A stretch of 24,623 bases of DNA, from positions 1-24,623 of the IMG/VR virus record IMGVR_UViG_3300037234_000372; one strand, written 5' to 3'. This DNA comes from a virus. The position numbers were made by a program, and so were the translations under genes. Under the pieces are notes generated by a model, which was not told the DNA's origin, made no database searches, and saw nothing but the letters and a program-made list of their open reading frames with translations. This document shows, in pieces, positions 4,283 to 24,488 of this stretch; the first letter of the stretch is position 1; the number at the start of each line of letters is the position of its first letter.

Positions 4283-5199
4283 TGGCCAACATCATCCTAG
4301 GGCGCAGGCTTCCTCTGGACAAGAGAAACAACCCGATTGTCTCCTACTCTGACAGCACAGAGCAGGCGCTCTTAGACCTCGGTCACACGGTAATCCCTAT
4401 GGGAGAGGGCTACGCTTCTGAAACTCTAGACGAGCTACCCGGTGGCATAAAGACACACGCTGACTTCTTTCTCGACCTTGACTGTGGGCGTAACAAGCAA
4501 GGTGACCTAGCCTTCCAGACCGAGAAGCCTTTCCTCCCTTCAGCCGTGAGATACATAGACACCCACGGCCACCCCAGCCTGCACAAGAGACAGGCTGAGT
4601 TCTACGACCATGTGTTTTTTGCTGTATGGGATAGGCGAGACCTATTTGCTAAGCACCCTTCGGCCCACTGGTGTCCTAACGCTAGCGATGCCAAGTACTT
4701 CGACAAGATGATTAAGCCTGAGGCCCACGGGTCTCGTCCTTTTGACGTAGGCTTCTTCGGTAGTAAGGGAGGGATAGACAGGGCTGATATCCTCAAGGAG
4801 ATTTGTGAACGCCACTGCTGGGCAGTTGACATCCGGGACATTGGGAAGAACCGCAGCCGCTGGCCTGCCACAGCTGAGGCTATGGCCCAGTGCAAGGTGC
4901 TGTTCAACAAGGGACAGAAGCACGACGGACCCAACCAGCGAGTGATAGAGTCCATGTTAATGGGCCGTCCCTTGGTGAGTGACAGGGACGATCGGGATGG
5001 TATGTCTAAGCTGTTTGAGATAGGAGAGCACTACCTTAGCTACGATTCAACCACCGAGCTGGCAGACAACCTGGGCTGGTGCCTACGTGAGCCGTCCTTG
5101 GCTGCATCTATGGCTGACAGAGCATTCAACTTGGCGCTAGAGAAGCACCAAGTCAAACACAGAGTAGAACAGATACTGGAGGTGTGTGGTGTCAAGTGA
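4282..5199 (+). CDS. CgeB/GT4-like (GT-B fold) glycosyltransferase
   Basis: This 305-residue protein looks like a short GT-B enzyme of the CgeB / Glyco_trans_1_2 type. The N-terminal half has a Rossmann-like start (ANIILGRR, then LLDLGHTVIPMG). The middle has the typical FDVGFFGSKGGIDRADILKE at about 153-172, a strand-loop-helix seen where CgeB-type proteins begin their C-terminal domain. The C-terminal nucleotide-sugar region reads VLFNKGQKHDGPNQRVIESM and then GRPLVSD, followed by LFEIGEHYLSYDSTTEL, which matches the family pattern of a conserved Arg/Glu helix, a Gly-Pro turn and a final acidic loop. No membrane segment is present. It is coupled to the preceding GT2 gene by a 1-bp TGATG overlap. 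The family call is good; the substrate is unknown. Confidence 0.72.
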   Translation: MANIILGRRLPLDKRNNPIVSYSDSTEQALLDLGHTVIPMGEGYASETLDELPGGIKTHADFFLDLDCGRNKQGDLAFQTEKPFLPSAVRYIDTHGHPSLHKRQAEFYDHVFFAVWDRRDLFAKHPSAHWCPNASDAKYFDKMIKPEAHGSRPFDVGFFGSKGGIDRADILKEICERHCWAVDIRDIGKNRSRWPATAEAMAQCKVLFNKGQKHDGPNQRVIESMLMGRPLVSDRDDRDGMSKLFEIGEHYLSYDSTTELADNLGWCLREPSLAASMADRAFNLALEKHQVKHRVEQILEVCGVK

Positions 5200-5428: not shown

Positions 5429-6182
5429 GATTGAAGGGCTGACCCCTACCATTCTAGTGATGAACGATCAGTACTGGCTTCCTTACGCCTTAGAGTCTCT
5501 CCGAGGTAGGTTCCACCGCTACGTGATCTACGATGCAGGCTCCGAGGATGGCACAGAGAACATCATCGACTGGTTCGTAGAGACAGAGGATGCCGAGTTC
5601 TTCGTACGCAAGCTGCCATTCGCCGTCCCTGCTATCCAAGGGTGCTACCGCAACTCCATGCTAGTGGAGGCAGAGACAGATTGGACGTTCATGGTGGATG
5701 CGGACGAGGTGTACCACCCTGACAGCTTGGACAACCTGATCGAGAGGATCACTCCTAAAACTGATCATAGTCGCATAGGAGTTATGGTAGAGAAAACCCT
5801 GTACGGGGTAGTTAGGCGCACTGAGATGGCTACGAACTTGATCCACCGCTATTCAGAAGTACGCACACACCACCGCATGTACCGCCGCGGCGCGTACTTC
5901 ACAGGCACCCACCCAGGAGAGGTACCTAAACCTAAGCAGAACAAAAACAACGAGTTTCACATGGACAATGTGATGTGCTGGCACTTCCACAACGCTCTAC
6001 GTTCGCCCTTGGAGGGGTCGGTACCGAAGAGGCTAGATAGAAAGTCACAAGGCACGTACCACCCAGGAGAGCTTGAGACTTTCGATCTGTTGGAAGAACT
6101 GCCTATCTTGCGGGAGCCGATCAACAACTTCCCAGTTAGCCCTGACTTGGAGAGGTTGCAGCATGTCGCTCGTAAAATGTAA
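5415..6182 (+). CDS. GT2-like glycosyltransferase
   Basis: This 255-residue protein has GT-A fold signatures. TPTILVMNDQYWLPYALESL forms the first strand and helix, YDAGSEDGT at 39-47 is the nucleotide-binding loop, and FMVDADEVY at 92-100 supplies the DxD metal site (Asp95-Ala-Asp97). An HRMYRRGAYFTGTHPGEV stretch and a CWHFHN motif lie in the acceptor half, resembling GT2 enzymes that glycosylate proteins or lipopolysaccharide. The start is uncertain: GTG at 5415 lies only 3 bases after GGAGG (5407-5411), while an in-frame TTG at 5421 is 9 bases away and may be the real one. The 3' end overlaps the next small gene by 20 bp. It is the last enzyme of the glycosyltransferase operon. Confidence 0.8.
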   Translation: MALSKIEGLTPTILVMNDQYWLPYALESLRGRFHRYVIYDAGSEDGTENIIDWFVETEDAEFFVRKLPFAVPAIQGCYRNSMLVEAETDWTFMVDADEVYHPDSLDNLIERITPKTDHSRIGVMVEKTLYGVVRRTEMATNLIHRYSEVRTHHRMYRRGAYFTGTHPGEVPKPKQNKNNEFHMDNVMCWHFHNALRSPLEGSVPKRLDRKSQGTYHPGELETFDLLEELPILREPINNFPVSPDLERLQHVARKM

Positions 6183-6357
6183 GTGCGGTAGGTACACCCA
6201 GAATGGGTTCCTCTGCACTAACTGTCAGAAGGACGCCTCGATCGACACATCCTACTATGAACCTGATGTCGTAGAGGATGAAGAGGAACTCGATGAGCTA
6301 GGGTTCACTATCATTGACAGCTTAGAAGGGTACGACGATGAAGAGGAAGACGATTAG
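6163..6357 (+). CDS. Small zinc-ribbon-like protein with acidic tail
   Basis: A 64-residue protein starting at the ATG at 6163, with GGAGAGG about 7 bases upstream; the open frame further upstream is overlap with the glycosyltransferase. The N-terminal 25 residues hold four cysteines in CKCGRYTQNGFLCTNCQ, a CxC...CxxC pair typical of a small zinc ribbon. The remaining 40 residues are strongly acidic (DVVEDEEELDELG, then YDDEEEDD at the end), suggesting a basic binding partner or DNA mimicry. It is the last gene of the forward operon. Its TAG stop overlaps the stop codon of the converging gene. Function unknown. Confidence 0.65.
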   Translation: MSLVKCKCGRYTQNGFLCTNCQKDASIDTSYYEPDVVEDEEELDELGFTIIDSLEGYDDEEEDD

Positions 6358-6731
6358 AAGTCTATCTCGTACTCAGGATTCTTCCGCACACCCGAGTCGT
6401 CACACATAAGGTTCCATGCCTTCTCGATAGACGAAGCATGCTTGTCTAGCAGATCCCATTCCATTTTCATATAGTAACACTTGAGGTGACCGTACTTGAA
6501 GTCGCTGTCGCTCTCAGCCCTTTCAAGGCAGGATTTGTAATGGTTGAAGGTATGCACCATCCCGTCGTACAGGAAGGTATAGATCTCATCTAGGCCATCG
6601 CACGGCATACCTAGGTATGCTCTCACTAGGTTGGGATCGGAGTGATCGTCGCGCGGCGGGTCAACAATAGCTCCTGCTACCACAGCCATGCTCAGTATAC
6701 CCACCCCTACTATGATAGCCAAGATCTTCAT
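6354..6731 (-). CDS. Membrane-anchored or secreted four-cysteine protein (paralogue 1)
   Basis: A 125-residue protein with a hydrophobic N-terminus (ILAIIVGVGILSMAVVAGAIV, about 3-23) acting as a signal peptide or membrane anchor, and a soluble domain holding Cys44, Cys68, Cys85 and Cys110. The cysteine spacing (C-x23-C-x16-C-x24-C) and residues around it match the upstream neighbour at 6728-7078, so the two are paralogues. If exported, the cysteines could form two disulfides. The ATG overlaps the previous stop in ATGA, preceded by AGGTGAAG. It is the last gene of the virion operon. Position after the ejection-protein gene makes a lysis or envelope role conceivable, but nothing in the sequence proves it. 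Confidence 0.7.
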   Translation of the reverse strand: MKILAIIVGVGILSMAVVAGAIVDPPRDDHSDPNLVRAYLGMPCDGLDEIYTFLYDGMVHTFNHYKSCLERAESDSDFKYGHLKCYYMKMEWDLLDKHASSIEKAWNLMCDDSGVRKNPEYEIDF

Positions 6732-7078
6732 TCTTCACCTGTGTAGGTTGAGCATTCTTTAGCGTTGAAGACATCCACTATCGCATTGCTTTGGCCTTGT
6801 AGAAACTGCCCGTGTTGCTTGATGAGAGCGCAGTGCAGCAGCCCATATCCGTTGTCAGCAGGCGAGTCAGCATAGGCTATACAACCTTGCCAGTAAGCGT
6901 ACACGTCTTGTAGTAGTGTGTGGTTGAAGTTGTACCCTTCTACTAACTCTTCGCACGTCAGATCCTCAAGCAGCCAGTCACCGTTGAAGTCCGCGCTATT
7001 GGACCGCATGGCCACTAGAAATAGGATAGCCAACACACATGTAATTCCAAGCGCACATACTAGTAACCTTTGAACCAT
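6728..7078 (-). CDS. Membrane-anchored four-cysteine protein (paralogue 2)
   Basis: A 116-residue protein with an N-terminal membrane segment (RLLVCALGITCVLAILFLVAM, about 4-24) and an exported domain with Cys42, Cys66, Cys83 and Cys109. The spacing C-x23-C-x16-C-x25-C is almost identical to that of the downstream gene. Shared positions include C-[DE]-x-L-x-E-x-Y-x-F after the first Cys and YGxLxC before the third. I start it at the ATG at 7078, which has AAGGGAG 5 bases upstream. A GTG at 7093 is possible but lies inside the end of the preceding gene and lacks a site. The pair probably arose by gene duplication. Whether they act as a heterodimer in the envelope, in lysis or in exclusion of other phages is not known. 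Confidence 0.7.
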   Translation of the reverse strand: MVQRLLVCALGITCVLAILFLVAMRSNSADFNGDWLLEDLTCEELVEGYNFNHTLLQDVYAYWQGCIAYADSPADNGYGLLHCALIKQHGQFLQGQSNAIVDVFNAKECSTYTGEE

Positions 7079-7079
7079 C

Positions 7080-10000
7080 TTATCTCCCTTCACCCTTCAT
7101 ACGTTGTGCATTTCTTAGAGCTTGCAACAGTTGTTCTCTTGCCTTGCTGCGGTACCCACCTGCCATCTTCCCTGCTCGTTGTAGCCTCTCTATAAGCTCA
7201 TTCTCGCTCCAGCCTCTCAGGCCGGGAAGCTGACCTAGCTGCTCAACGTGTCGCTCTAGCCACTCCGTGTACTTATTCTGTGCCATTACAGGGCTGTGCA
7301 GGTATTGTTCGGTGTAGGTTCCTTGGATGTCTGTTAGGATATCGACCACATCCTTCTCATTCCCTTCGCTGGTGTGGAAGTCAAGGTTCTTAGACAGATG
7401 GTTTCTCACCTTGGTCAGGTGCTTCTCAGCTAGCTGCTCATTCGCCAGCTGCTGCTCACCCGTGGCTGAATACGACTTGAAGATACCCACGTTGTTCAAT
7501 AAGAAGTCGGTGGTCATGTTGCCAGGGCGTCCCGTCATCGGATCGATGGCGTTGCCTGTGTCTATCAGCGCTTTCGAGATGTTGGTGAGGCCAGTCGGTT
7601 CACCCCACAGCGGGACATCAGGAGTCGTCAGCCTAAAGCCGTACTTCTGAAGGAAAGGTGGGGCCATGAACCCAAGGATACCAGCTATAGTCTTGCCAAC
7701 CCCACCCTCTATAGGCTTACCGTTACCGTCTTCACCTGTGAACGCCTGCACCATAGGCTTGAGGATGGCCAGCGGGTCAGCGGGCATCTGTTCCAACAAA
7801 CCTGCCGCATCCCTCCAGGGGAGTGCTCCGGTTCCAGCGAAGTCAGTGGAGGTGCTCTTCAAGAAGAACGTGGAGTGAGGAAGGAAGTCAAGTAGCGCAC
7901 CACGCATCTGGTTGCCGTGCTCCTCGTCCGTCCCTAGTGCCATTCCGAGGCCTAGCCCAACACCTCCGACGCCAGCACCTATGTATGCTTTCTTGGCTAT
8001 AGCTGCCCCGGCCTTGGCACCGGCCATGGCACCCTTGGCACTCCGAGCACCTGCCGCTCCTAATGCCGCTCCTGCTACAGCACCAACCACGCCACCAGTA
8101 CCTGCGCCACCTATCCCTGCCAGAGACTTACCAGTTCCGACTACGGTGGTGTACTTCTGTGCCCAGGTAGGTAGCTGCTTCTTGATGCCTGATACTTCTT
8201 GAGGGTCACCGGCGAAGCCCATGCCACTCATTATAGTCTGGGAGATCTGGGGCGCTCTCAACCAGGGGATCATGCGGAGGGGGTGATCCATCAGGTTGTT
8301 CTTAGTAATACGCATGGCCTCAGCCGGGAACGTGGCCCACGGGAAGGCGAACTTACGACCATACTTGATGGCAGACCCAACGGTTCCATACATGGGAAGC
8401 CTACGGGCCACCTCAGTTACGGCAGCTTTGCGGGTGAGGCCTTGGCCTCGGAGGTGCATGAAGTACGTCATCTTAGGGATCATGTCCTCAGCCAGATAGG
8501 CCTTAGTCATCTGGTCGAACCACTTCGCTTTGCCTCTGCCTTGGGCAATATCCTTTGCACTTAGGAACTTGTCGATGAAGCCCTTGGTGAAGTACTGCTC
8601 TTTTCGGAGGGCATCCCTCAGCCGCAGCAGGTGTGCCGAGCCTTCCACACTCTCAAAGGCTGACTCTTCCATTAGCTCTTTGACTGCGGGGTCGGTTAGC
8701 TCATCCAGCATATTAAATTCTTTGCCACCAGTGCGAACCTTTCCAAGGTTGATTCCCTTGAAGCGGTCTGCTCCTCTGAGCCCTGCGGCGTTAGCGGCCT
8801 TAGTCATTTTGGCATAGTCGTTGAATGTGTGGGTCATCTCACCCATCAACTTCAGGTTCTTGGGGGCCATCGAGTTGAAGCCAGCCTGATACAGGAACGA
8901 GATATTACCTGTCAGGTTCTGGAAGTGGGTGGCTGGATTCAGGGCCGTCTTCATGGTCTTGTAGATGGTTGTCATCACGTCCATCATATTACCAGTGATA
9001 CGGTCACCCTGGAACATCATCCCTTCCTTGCCGAAGATACCGTCGAACACATTCCTATCAATCCAAGGGAGATCCGCCTCATCTAGCCCTGTCTTCTTGG
9101 CGATCATACGCTTCAGGATTGCCGTCGGTCCTTCACCTGCGGTGTCCATCCGAACAAACCCTAGCTTATGCATCTTACGAGAGTCGAACCCCAAGCTCTC
9201 TACCTTGGCGAGGCTCCAAACCTTATCGCCCTCTTTGGTTAGCATATCAGTGACGAACTGGTAGTTGGTGTGAAGGATACCATCATTGATGTACCCTTGC
9301 ACGGTCATCTCAGCGGGATCAGTGATAAGCTCACCCGCCTCCAACCGTCCGAAGATGTCAGTGTGATCCCCACCTCTATGCTTCAGGGTATTGCTGGTAA
9401 GCCTGGGTTTGTTAGCAACCTTGACAGCGATGGTTGTGAACTCTTCCTCATTTACAGGATTGAATACTGTTGTCTCACCAAATATTCCCTTCTCTTGCTC
9501 CTTGACCAGACCTTTAGCTCGGGTCTTCGGAGCGCCCTTCGGGGGCTTGATGGGAATGAGGTGGGTAGTAGTAGCACCGATGCCTAAGTCAGGGGTGCCC
9601 TTGCTAAGTGCCGGAAGATGAGCAGGGCCTACCCTCATGTATGTATCTTGAGTGATGAACCCACTCTCTAGCATCTCGTCCTGTCGCTTACGTGCTGCGG
9701 TGAGATAGAAGTCAGCCCACTCCTTGTTCTTGGCTGACAGCTTACCAAACCTACCAGCAGCCTTGGCTGCGAGGCCAGCCCCCGGTGCAATCTCCCCAAG
9801 GATGTAGCCATAGATGGCATCTTGCTGCTCGATACCGGGCATCTCACGTAGGATGGTACCCATAGTATCGTTCTGCCACAGCCTCTGGTGCATGTCATGG
9901 AACTGGTTCTTGATATCACCATTCTTAGCGTCTTGGATCATACCATTATAGGTCTGAGAGAACCTCTTATCAAACGAGTGCCGCATCGACTCCATCTTTG

Positions 10001-22605: not shown

Positions 22606-22998
22606 TTATACTAGTTCCGGATTCGAAGAGTCACCATACGCCAGAACCACGACAGCAAACGCTTCACTGTCATTTGCTTCTACCTGTGTGGACGCATCAT
22701 CAACGAGTAGCAATTTTCCTTCGTTTCCTGATTCAGCAATATACACCCCAAGGTTAGGGATCGTCGCAGTCGGGACCAAGTTGAGAGAGTGATACACATT
22801 GCAACCAACAACGAGAGTATCGATCTTTGAAAGACCAAGCTCCAGTGCTGTTAGCACGATACCACCTGTGTTGTAGGTACCCGTAATCTCAGCGACTACT
22901 TCAACTTTGCTGTTTGAGGCAATACCCGTGAGGGAGTGACCGCCACCAGCAAATCGACTTTTGATAAGTGTCTTAACGTCAAAATCACCATCAGCCAT
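22606..22998 (-). CDS. 130-residue virion-like protein, paralogue C
   Basis: A 130-residue beta-rich protein, last of three tandem paralogues. Conserved positions with the two upstream copies include MADGDF at the start, GGGH near 18-21, ASNSK, TGTYNTGG, LGLxxID, ASTQxEA and AYGDS, ending PELV. Repeats of this type (low charge, Gly/Thr/Ala-rich, no signal peptide) are typical of abundant capsid decoration or minor head proteins, which fits the position in the operon. GGAG lies upstream of the ATG in the 15-bp spacer. A Cys near residue 65 (VVGCNVYHS) is not shared with the other copies. Confidence 0.72.
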   Translation of the reverse strand: MADGDFDVKTLIKSRFAGGGHSLTGIASNSKVEVVAEITGTYNTGGIVLTALELGLSKIDTLVVGCNVYHSLNLVPTATIPNLGVYIAESGNEGKLLLVDDASTQVEANDSEAFAVVVLAYGDSSNPELV

Positions 22999-23013
22999 TT
23001 TGTGTCTCCTTTA

Positions 23014-23406
23014 TTATGTGAGTTCCGGTGCGGCGGCAGAATCACCAAACGCTACGATGGTACATGAGAACGTTTGAGAGTCTGTTGCCTCTGCCTGTGT
23101 GGATGCATTGGTATGAAACATCAACAGCCCATTACTACCAGACACAGCAAGATACTGTCCTGTATGAGGGTCTGCGGCACCCGGTGCATTGAGGGTATTC
23201 GGATGGACTTGACTTACAAGAATTGCATCAATCGTTGTAAGGCCAAGAGAGGTCGCATACACTGCGACACCACCGGTGTTGTAGGTACCTGTAACAGATG
23301 CCACAACGCGAGTCTTAGAGTTGGAAGCAGCACCTAGAATAGTGTGCCCGCCACCTTCAGCTCGATCTTTAGCGAGTACTTTAACTACGAAATCGCCATC
23401 AGCCAT
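23014..23406 (-). CDS. 130-residue virion-like protein, paralogue B
   Basis: A 130-residue protein, the middle copy of the tandem trio, starting MADGDFVVKVLAKDRAEGGG and ending in FGDSAAAPELT. TRVVASVTGTYNTGG is shared almost fully with the first or third copy, and the 15-bp spacer and the end of the gene are near-identical in DNA to those of the neighbour copy. It differs mainly in the middle region (about 62-85), as expected for exposed loops. AAAGGAGA lies in the 15-bp spacer before the ATG. A structural virion role is likely; head or tail location is not shown. Confidence 0.72.
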   Translation of the reverse strand: MADGDFVVKVLAKDRAEGGGHTILGAASNSKTRVVASVTGTYNTGGVAVYATSLGLTTIDAILVSQVHPNTLNAPGAADPHTGQYLAVSGSNGLLMFHTNASTQAEATDSQTFSCTIVAFGDSAAAPELT

Positions 23407-23421
23407 TTTATTTCTCCTTTA

Positions 23422-23814
23422 TTATGTAAGTTCCGGTCCTTCTGCTGAGTCGCCGAACACTACAAGCGTAGTAGAAAAAGCAGTCTCAGCCGCCTCTGCT
23501 TGTGTGGTCGCGCTAGTATTCAGAATGAGCAGCCCTTCAGCTCCAGAACGAGCAGCATATGCTACCCGGTTAGGTGTGCCACCCGCGGGTGCTGTATCAG
23601 CATCAACAAATGTGTTCGCACCACTAAAGATAGCATCAATAGTTTCGAGTCCAAGATCTGATGCTTTCAGTGTAACCCCGCCCGTCGCGTAAGTCCCTGT
23701 AATAGAGACTACAATGCGAGTCTTGTTGTTCTTGGGCTGACCATTGATATTACGCCCGCCTCCATCAATTCTCGCGGCAGAGAGTGTTCTAACATCGAAA
23801 TCGCCTGCGGCCAT
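23422..23814 (-). CDS. 130-residue virion-like protein, paralogue A
   Basis: First copy of the trio, again 130 residues: MAAGDFDVRTLSAARIDGGG at the start, TRIVVSITGTYATGGVTLKA in the middle, and FSTTLVVFGDSAEGPELT at the end. It is the most divergent at the amino acid level (for example NPKNNK-type changes at about 26-31 and a longer Ala/Pro-rich loop near 72-80), although its length and the spacing of conserved blocks are unchanged. AAAGGAGA precedes the ATG. It lies 12 bp after the DUF1353-like gene. Confidence 0.72.
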   Translation of the reverse strand: MAAGDFDVRTLSAARIDGGGRNINGQPKNNKTRIVVSITGTYATGGVTLKASDLGLETIDAIFSGANTFVDADTAPAGGTPNRVAYAARSGAEGLLILNTSATTQAEAAETAFSTTLVVFGDSAEGPELT

Positions 23815-23826
23815 ATCGTTTCTCCT

Positions 23827-24222
23827 TTAATCGTTGTCAAGCATCCACTGTGGTTGCTTGATGTTGTGTCGGCACCGATCACCTTCCTCAGCGCCGCAGC
23901 TATCCCAGGAACCCCAGTCTCCTCCAATCCGTACTCCTATGTAGAGTATGATCGGTGCGAGATTGAGCCACCAGGGAAGTAGCTCTCTTGCATGCTTACG
24001 TAGCGCTTTGTCAGCAAAGGCTCTAGCCTCATCGGTCATAGAATCTTTGCTGTGACAGCGCGTGCAATAGTGCCAATCGTGAACCCTACCTGAGATCCAC
24101 AACTGCCATCTTCGGTACATCCAGTCAGGAAAACCACCAGAGAGACCATCATCCACAAAGTCAGGATAATCTCTGCTGATGACGCTCATGTAGAATGCAA
24201 CCTTCTCGATTGCCCAGCTCAT
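23827..24222 (-). CDS. Trp/Cys-rich protein with a DUF1353-like HD motif
   Basis: A 131-residue protein with RVHDWHYCTRC near residues 46-56, an Ala-Asp helix (EARAFADKALRKHAREL) and then WWLNLAPIILYIGVRIGG and a WGSWDSCG end. DUF1353-type phage proteins show HDxLY, a helix with a conserved Ala-Asp, a hydrophobic helix and a (V/I)R-x-x-G element in the same order, so this is a tentative match. The CTRC and the CGAEEGDRC pairs could bind metal. The hydrophobic stretch near 83-95 could contact a membrane. The ATG overlaps the previous stop in ATGA. Function is unknown even for the family. Confidence 0.55.
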   Translation of the reverse strand: MSWAIEKVAFYMSVISRDYPDFVDDGLSGGFPDWMYRRWQLWISGRVHDWHYCTRCHSKDSMTDEARAFADKALRKHARELLPWWLNLAPIILYIGVRIGGDWGSWDSCGAEEGDRCRHNIKQPQWMLDND

Positions 24223-24488
24223 GGTGTGGGTACCACACCTTTGACAGCGCCCTTAGCCAAACCTTCAGCTAGCTTGCCAGCGTTGTCACTGAAGCCTGTA
24301 TCCTTGGTGTCGTACAGTATGTCTACACAGTCGTTGACCACTTCTTTCTCGGTCTCGCCTGTGCCGAACACGGTGGACTTCACCTCGGCACACAAGGTGC
24401 CGTTAGGATAGTAAAACTTGTCGTGTGAGTGAGCACACCCGAAGGTGAGCCCAAACACACACAAGATGATTATTGCTGCAAATCTCAC
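24219..24488 (-). CDS. Small lipoprotein-like secreted protein
   Basis: An 89-residue protein with a hydrophobic signal (FAAIIILCVFGLTFG) directly before Cys18 (sequence FGLTFGCAHSHD). This resembles a lipobox, although the residue at -3 is Thr and at -2 Phe, so lipidation is uncertain. Two further cysteines (Cys33, Cys54) follow. The C-terminus is a short Gly/Ala/Lys helix (GKLAEGLAKGAVKGVVP). It starts with GTG, overlapping the stop of the upstream gene (GTGA). In size and design it resembles Rz1-type outer spanins or lipoproteins that block superinfection, but the location among virion genes is unusual for spanins. Confidence 0.55.
   Translation of the reverse strand: MRFAAIIILCVFGLTFGCAHSHDKFYYPNGTLCAEVKSTVFGTGETEKEVVNDCVDILYDTKDTGFSDNAGKLAEGLAKGAVKGVVPTP

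Follow-up and report, generated by a model that had tools for sequence, protein, structure and literature searches.

The gene pair at the end of the structural operon

The window analysed here, the whole 24,623-base stretch of the IMG/VR virus record IMGVR_UViG_3300037234_000372, carries on its minus strand a structural operon that ends with a gene for a 1216-amino-acid (aa) protein followed by two small genes, here called A and B (Table 1). A begins 1 nt past the stop of the 1216-aa gene, and B and A overlap as ATGA; this tight spacing suggests that the three genes are translationally coupled. An earlier sequence-only reading had given these coordinates for the pair and placed it at the end of the operon, and both statements hold, B being the last gene. 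On the plus strand, a zinc-ribbon-like gene, whose stop overlaps the stop of B and which is kept at the same place in most relatives, and glycosyltransferase-like genes point toward A and B (labels read from the sequence). No excess of promoters or terminators was seen at positions 6000-7400.

Both proteins carry four core cysteines, spaced C-x23-C-x16-C-x25-C in A and C-x23-C-x16-C-x24-C in B, and their alignment is gap-free up to the third cysteine, as had been described for the pair before. BLASTP of A against B gave 24% identity over 102 residues (E 2e-8, single comparison), and hhalign with five-row profiles gave a probability of 79 (E 1.5e-5). The Smith-Waterman score of the A core against the B core was 79, which none of 2000 shuffles of the B core reached in each of three schemes; the shuffle maxima were 51 for free shuffling, 55 with the four cysteines fixed, and 70 with the cysteines and the hydrophobic/polar pattern fixed. 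Hidden Markov models (HMMs) of the A and B families each detect the other family in most genomes. The A HMM finds B with E 1e-7 to 3e-6 in the window and the four nearest relatives and with 2e-4 in G006, while the most diverged B copy (G001) has no significant match (E 2). Taken together, the BLASTP, shuffle, hhalign and HMM results argue that A and B are homologous and that their duplication is real and old, and the earlier claim of paralogy is thereby borne out.

A family alignment of 16 rows was prepared, leaving out L017 and L023, in which A is cut at the contig start and the contig end, respectively, and L027, whose protein is the same as that of L024. The four core cysteines are present in 16/16 rows, with a first spacing of 23 in every row, a second of 15-16 and a third of 24-26. 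The motifs ExYxF and YGxLxC, which the sequence-only reading had called conserved, survive in part: F is invariant and Y, G and L are near-invariant, and the E is neither. The statement that no family is recognised was upheld by scans of Pfam, PHROGs, NCBIfam, PADLOC and the PDB. For A, PHROGs returned one weak match to a family of unknown function (E 0.013) and the PDB sequence search one weak match (E 0.081); for B, the PDB sequence search returned none, and NCBIfam two matches, both far below cutoff. By these comparisons the A/B family is new to the libraries searched.

Table 1. Features of the A/B locus and of other loci discussed (positions in the window unless a contig handle is given).
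Feature	Positions	Strand	Basis or remark
Gene A, predicted anchored four-cysteine hairpin protein, 116 aa, ATG start	6728..7078	-	GGGAG upstream of start
A leader, apolar over 20 residues, predicted to act as an uncleaved N-in anchor	6992..7078	-	Hydropathy and cleavage-site rules
A core, predicted helical hairpin, C42, C66, C83, C109	6731..6991	-	Model and alignment
Gene B, predicted secreted four-cysteine hairpin protein, 125 aa, ATG start	6354..6731	-	ATGA overlap with A
B leader, predicted cleavable signal peptide (site between AGA and IV)	6669..6731	-	Site rules; hypervariable
B core, predicted helical hairpin, C44, C68, C85, C110	6357..6668	-	Model and alignment
Large Cys-free presumed ejection protein, 1216 aa	7080..10730	-	Directly upstream of A in the operon
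Small zinc-ribbon-like gene, CxCGRYT..GxxCxxC	6160..6357	+	Convergent neighbour, outside the A/B module
Exported lipoprotein	24222-24488		Lipobox-like FGC in the G002 copy
131-aa neighbour of the lipoprotein	23827-24222		87% identical to G003
Two-Cys HH(K/R)xGHQ proteins	L026 9608-9895, L033 6264-6536, L034 9931-10191, L035 9585-9845, L048 9265-9567
Putative lysis cassette region	L045 12961-16775 = G006 92.96-96.78 kb		Before the large terminase

Leaders, hairpin models and the large upstream protein

Leader types were assigned by rule, from hydropathy and the pattern of cleavage sites. The leaders of A contain an uninterrupted 20-residue apolar run in 7/7 copies, with 19-residue hydropathy maxima of 2.81-3.04 in all seven, and a conventional cleavage site (A/V/S/T-x-A) stands just after this run in 1/7 copies (G005, between TGA and DF). 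The leaders of B show an A-x-A or A-x-S signal-peptidase site at the expected place in 7/7 copies. Thus A is predicted to stay anchored in the inner membrane through an uncleaved leader, and B to be cleaved and set free as a soluble protein of the periplasm. Export of both proteins, as claimed in the sequence-only reading, is supported by these leader types, and its description of a membrane-anchored pair seems to fit A and not B. Both cores are acidic, with net charges of -4 to -15.

AlphaFold2 was run with the 16 family rows, and the mean predicted local distance difference test (pLDDT) was 81.1 for B and 81.2 for A, with 92-95 in the B core. Both models are antiparallel helical hairpins, with helices at 44-74 and 81-109 in B and at 42-70 and 79-106 in A. 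The disulfide pairing was deduced from the helix register. In B the turn is centred at 77.5 (i+j about 155), so that C44 stands opposite position ~111 (C110) and C68 opposite ~87 (C85); in A the centre is 74.5 (i+j about 149), with C42 opposite ~107 (C109) and C66 opposite 83 (C83). The pairing is therefore probably C1-C4 and C2-C3, two nested bridges that would clamp each hairpin. At a cut-off of E <= 0.001, fold searches gave no match in the PDB for B (best 0.78) or A (best 0.43), and none in BFVD for B (best 0.77). The best VIA match (Z 9.7) is a designed hairpin, which points to a common arrangement only; the fold matches are generic hairpins and uninformative on function. No RI, SieA or CHCH chain occurs among the fold matches listed, and the Rap1a/Tai immunity proteins, a lead suggested by the cysteine layout, gave no Pfam match at E up to 10 and are likewise absent among the fold matches listed.

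Proteins of the CHCH or twin CX9C type also form a helical hairpin, in which C1 pairs with C4 and, nested inside, C2 with C3. The layout predicted for A and B is similar, but the analogy is one of layout only, as A and B are phage-borne and secreted, and their spacing is that given above in 16/16 rows and not 9.

The 1216-aa protein is presumed to be an ejection protein from the gene order, its lack of cysteine and a SlyB-like glycine-zipper stretch. This stretch was found with E 0.0027 using the profile of distant relatives and with E 3 using the window's own, and PHROG support for the large protein is weak and mixed. The protein is Cys-free in 19/19 rows (503-1518 aa, two partial), and in G001, G002 and G006 cysteine is likewise missing from the products of the two preceding genes. 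Since A and B adjoin this gene and are probably coupled to it, they could be built into the virion or help the ejection protein to fold. We consider this very unlikely, because the leaders would carry the cores across the membrane and separate them from cytoplasmic assembly, and because the Cys-bearing cores seem to follow another fate than a protein free of cysteine in every row.

Distribution, fusions and exchange among relatives

The viral_contigs collection was scanned with A and B, as sequences and as alignments, and with the large protein; several loci of one contig were counted once. A relative of the large gene was found on 21 distinct contigs, and a small Cys-containing open reading frame (ORF) lies directly after it in 17/21, with an export leader in nearly all. 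Complete A and B follow the large gene in six of these contigs (G001-G006), and A is cut by the contig end in one more (L023). A single fused gene takes this place in 3/21 (L024, L027, L028), a two-Cys small ORF in 7/21 (L026, L030, L033, L034, L035, L048, L053; that of L053 has three cysteines in all and no clear leader), and a lipoprotein with four further cysteines in 1/21 (L058). Every A/B relative found in viral_contigs sits beside the large gene. The fragment L017, without the large gene, holds part of A and all of B and, as far as it can be read, closely matches G001. In 18 of these records, a profile search gave two matches each in six, one each in four and none in eight, with no A or B elsewhere in them. 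The shared place and the cysteine pair of the two-Cys proteins are treated as an analogy to A/B only.

No confirmed relative was obtained from profile searches of genome_contigs, and none from INPHARED, which was queried by megablast with the whole window and by tblastn with A, B, the proteins of 1216 and 229 aa and one of the two-Cys proteins; judged by these searches, the phage lineage of the window is without an isolate in INPHARED. The relatives G006 and G007 are ~119 kb in size, the record of G006 counting 119,470 bases and carrying repeats of 100 bases or more at its ends, and genomes of the window's lineage may be near 120 kb.

The single genes combine parts of A and B. In a gap-aware pairwise alignment of L024 and L020, a 320-base deletion joins the A leader to the B core in frame, and L028 likewise joins an A-type leader to a B-type core, at a junction unlike that of L024. 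In the tree of the large protein, rows with the pair and rows with the single gene form one clade (100/100), and the two single lineages are sister to the pair lineages G006 and G001, respectively, both with 100/100. Two of its rows (G5 and G9) are partial, a number of distant ones have long branches, and L027, L032 and L023 were not included. The simplest reading is that the A core was lost twice independently, with the A anchor and the B core kept each time. With two events, this outcome is possible by chance; it may also be favoured by keeping the start of A beside the large gene. The A core thus appears dispensable, and a B core is kept in every readable relative of the pair clade. The sequence-only reading had both copies kept, which applies to the six relatives in which both are fully readable and not to the three contigs (two lineages) with a fused gene; it had also named loss of one copy in close relatives as a finding that would refute the paralogous pair. 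Such loss was seen, and the paralogy stands nonetheless.

The window and G003 share 97% of A/B core residues and about 52% of the residues of the large proteins. At the nucleotide level, the identity is 61.6% in the large gene (synonymous divergence, pS, 0.69), 92.7% in the A core (pS 0.31) and 94.6% in the B core (pS 0.20), and 60-base windows centred in the leaders drop to 58-83%. Between the window and G002, nucleotide identity here is mostly 85-100%, except in one part of the large gene, at the ends, and in the B leader with 41%; the amino acid identity is 24% in the B leader and 96% in the B core. G003 and G004 display the opposite pattern, with 86-93% in the A leader and 33-61% at the end of the large gene and in most of the A core. 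The ratio of nonsynonymous to synonymous divergence (dN/dS) of the cores is 0.02-0.36 in close pairs, denoting purifying selection, and the low synonymous divergence in the cores argues for exchange and not only for such selection. From these comparisons, leaders and cores are exchanged separately.

Such exchange is not unique to the A/B locus. Between the window and G003, the lipoprotein at 24222-24488 (96% aa identity), a 225-aa protein (93%) and a 131-aa protein (87%) are also unusually alike, and the other long genes share 28-81%. The lipoprotein and its 131-aa neighbour suggest another exchanged small module. The swapping of cores between phages whose own proteins differ strongly, together with the likeness of the lipoprotein and its neighbour, would also suit inhibitors of a host envelope component, such as a periplasmic enzyme, chaperone or receptor, common to phages of one host. 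This explanation is possible though doubtful: free-standing copies of A or B were not found in the other phages or genomes searched, the linkage to the large gene is left unexplained, and the fold search suggests no target.

Putative lysis genes of a relative and a proposed role at the envelope

A putative lysis cassette was recognised in the relative G006, outside the window. Directly ahead of its large terminase gene (PF03237, E 1.4e-8), at 92.9-93.8 kb, this genome encodes a lipoprotein, an M15-like peptidase and a transmembrane (TM)-coiled-coil protein. The TM-coiled-coil protein has a weak Rz-like PHROG match (E 0.05). The M15-like motif was read by eye in a protein with no match in Pfam, PHROG or NCBIfam; tblastn with it gave a best E of 8e-10, the matches falling in regions of microviruses and Salinibacter phages that bear no annotation or the label 'hypothetical protein'. 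These putative lysis genes lie about 64 kb from A/B.

Rz/Rz1 spanins are encoded by an overlapping gene pair, in which one subunit has an N-terminal anchor and the other is a lipobox outer-membrane lipoprotein; the two together span from one membrane to the other and are required for lysis. A and B resemble them as overlapping genes at the end of the structural operon, with an N-terminal anchor in A, and a spanin-like lysis pair with A as the inner-membrane and B as the outer-membrane subunit had been among the options of the sequence-only reading. This option is now disfavoured and is highly improbable. The leader of B in the window has no cysteine, nor does the predicted mature start of B; Cys 8 and 14 in the leader of A stand in LLVC and GITC inside the apolar run, which is not a lipobox. 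Moreover, the cores are hairpins and not one long coiled coil, the B core alone survives in two lineages, and the candidate lysis genes are grouped separately near the terminase in G006.

The same cassette bears on a second lysis-related explanation, a regulator of lysis timing that works as the T4 antiholin RI does. This would be a small protein, secreted and helical, which attaches to a holin from the periplasmic side, perhaps as a response to superinfection. RI is described as having a cleavable signal peptide and acting from the periplasm (PMC8385771), and the predicted A-x-A/S site and helices would make B similar to it; the presumed late position, small size and secretion fit as well. 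RI acts, however, on the holin T, whereas no holin was identified here, A and B have no RI family match in Pfam or PHROGs, and in G006, the one complete-looking relative, they lie away from the putative lysis genes. We regard an RI-like role, like the host-target explanation, as a live alternative of low probability.

Our tentative proposal is that A and B act in superinfection exclusion or envelope guarding in the manner of P22 SieA, to which we give a probability of about 0.38; among the functions suggested before, envelope protection and superinfection exclusion fit best. The downstream position, export, an anchored and a free partner, the anchor fusions and the segment exchange together point to action at the inner membrane or in the periplasm. 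As paralogous phage proteins that are presumably expressed late, A and B would be exported to the infected cell's envelope, where the two nested disulfides of each hairpin, C1-C4 at the open end and C2-C3 near the turn, would form only after export. The leader would tether A to the inner membrane, and B would be released into the periplasm. Both would probably act at the same site, the outer face of the inner membrane, and may interfere there with the proteins through which incoming phages deliver their DNA; the product of the upstream gene is presumed to belong to this class. We take the two independent fusions of the A anchor to the B core as support for cooperation between A and B, and the segment exchange is in keeping with an interaction module exposed to shifting selection.

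SieA is described as a protein that a phage places in the inner membrane to prevent injection; mutations that escape it lie in the ejection proteins 16 and 20, and its authors' model is interference with the conduit built by ejection proteins (PMC10883804). A would be similar as a phage-encoded inner-membrane protein, as predicted from hydropathy and the missing cleavage site, which is not so for B, and SieA targets the presumed class of the protein encoded upstream of A. On the other hand, SieA is expressed from a prophage, and A and B are two small predicted cysteine hairpins. The Pfam, PHROG, NCBIfam and PADLOC scans name no SieA family, and A and B were not aligned directly with the SieA sequence. 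Exclusion escape for TP-J34 and HK97 maps to tape-measure or tail genes according to the same source (PMC10883804); the exclusion proteins of these long-tailed phages (TP-J34, Tuc2009, HK97 gp15) differ from A/B in host or architecture, and no homology to them was found.

Several points weigh against a role in exclusion. The pair lies at the end of the structural operon and is so presumably expressed late; in virulent phages, the genes for exclusion are often early ones. The library scans gave no sequence or structure homology of A/B to any exclusion protein, with no fold match at E <= 0.001, no Pfam or PADLOC match and nothing meaningful in NCBIfam. Nothing small follows the large gene in 3/21 contigs (L029, L032, L031), and hhalign of A/B against the two-Cys proteins of distant relatives, in an alignment leaving out L030, gave a probability of 1.1, so that sequence homology was not seen. 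The ejection role of the upstream gene is itself presumed, and A and B do not track the large protein between the window and G003. This last objection is weakened in that SieA also works against phages whose ejection proteins are very divergent (PMC10883804).

A more specific and rather speculative form of the exclusion reading is an undescribed two-part envelope guard, in which anchored A and free B, as disulfide-locked hairpins, would serve as a plug or decoy against incoming DNA-delivery conduits, with separately exchangeable leaders and cores and with two collapses to a one-piece tethered form. Literature searches found no paper that treats ejection proteins, signal peptides, cysteines and superinfection exclusion of phages together, and none that unites helical hairpins, disulfides and the periplasm with uncultivated phages. 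Most small exported phage proteins are without a known role, and an old pair with a fixed locus, two fusions and leader/core exchange offers a concrete, testable hypothesis on phage envelope protection.

Among the two-Cys proteins, the five listed in Table 1 carry HHKxGHQ or HHRSGHQ right after the leader, a possible metal site, and end mostly in C-x-E/D-V. In G002, an insert between B and the convergent gene contains a repeated ACGCAAG...CTTGCGT hairpin-like element (L002 about 4725-4790). Four successive ORFs of 130-131 aa occupy positions 22606-24222 of the window; the three at 22606-23814 look like tandem paralogues, and their counterparts in G002 start with MADGDF or MAAGDF.
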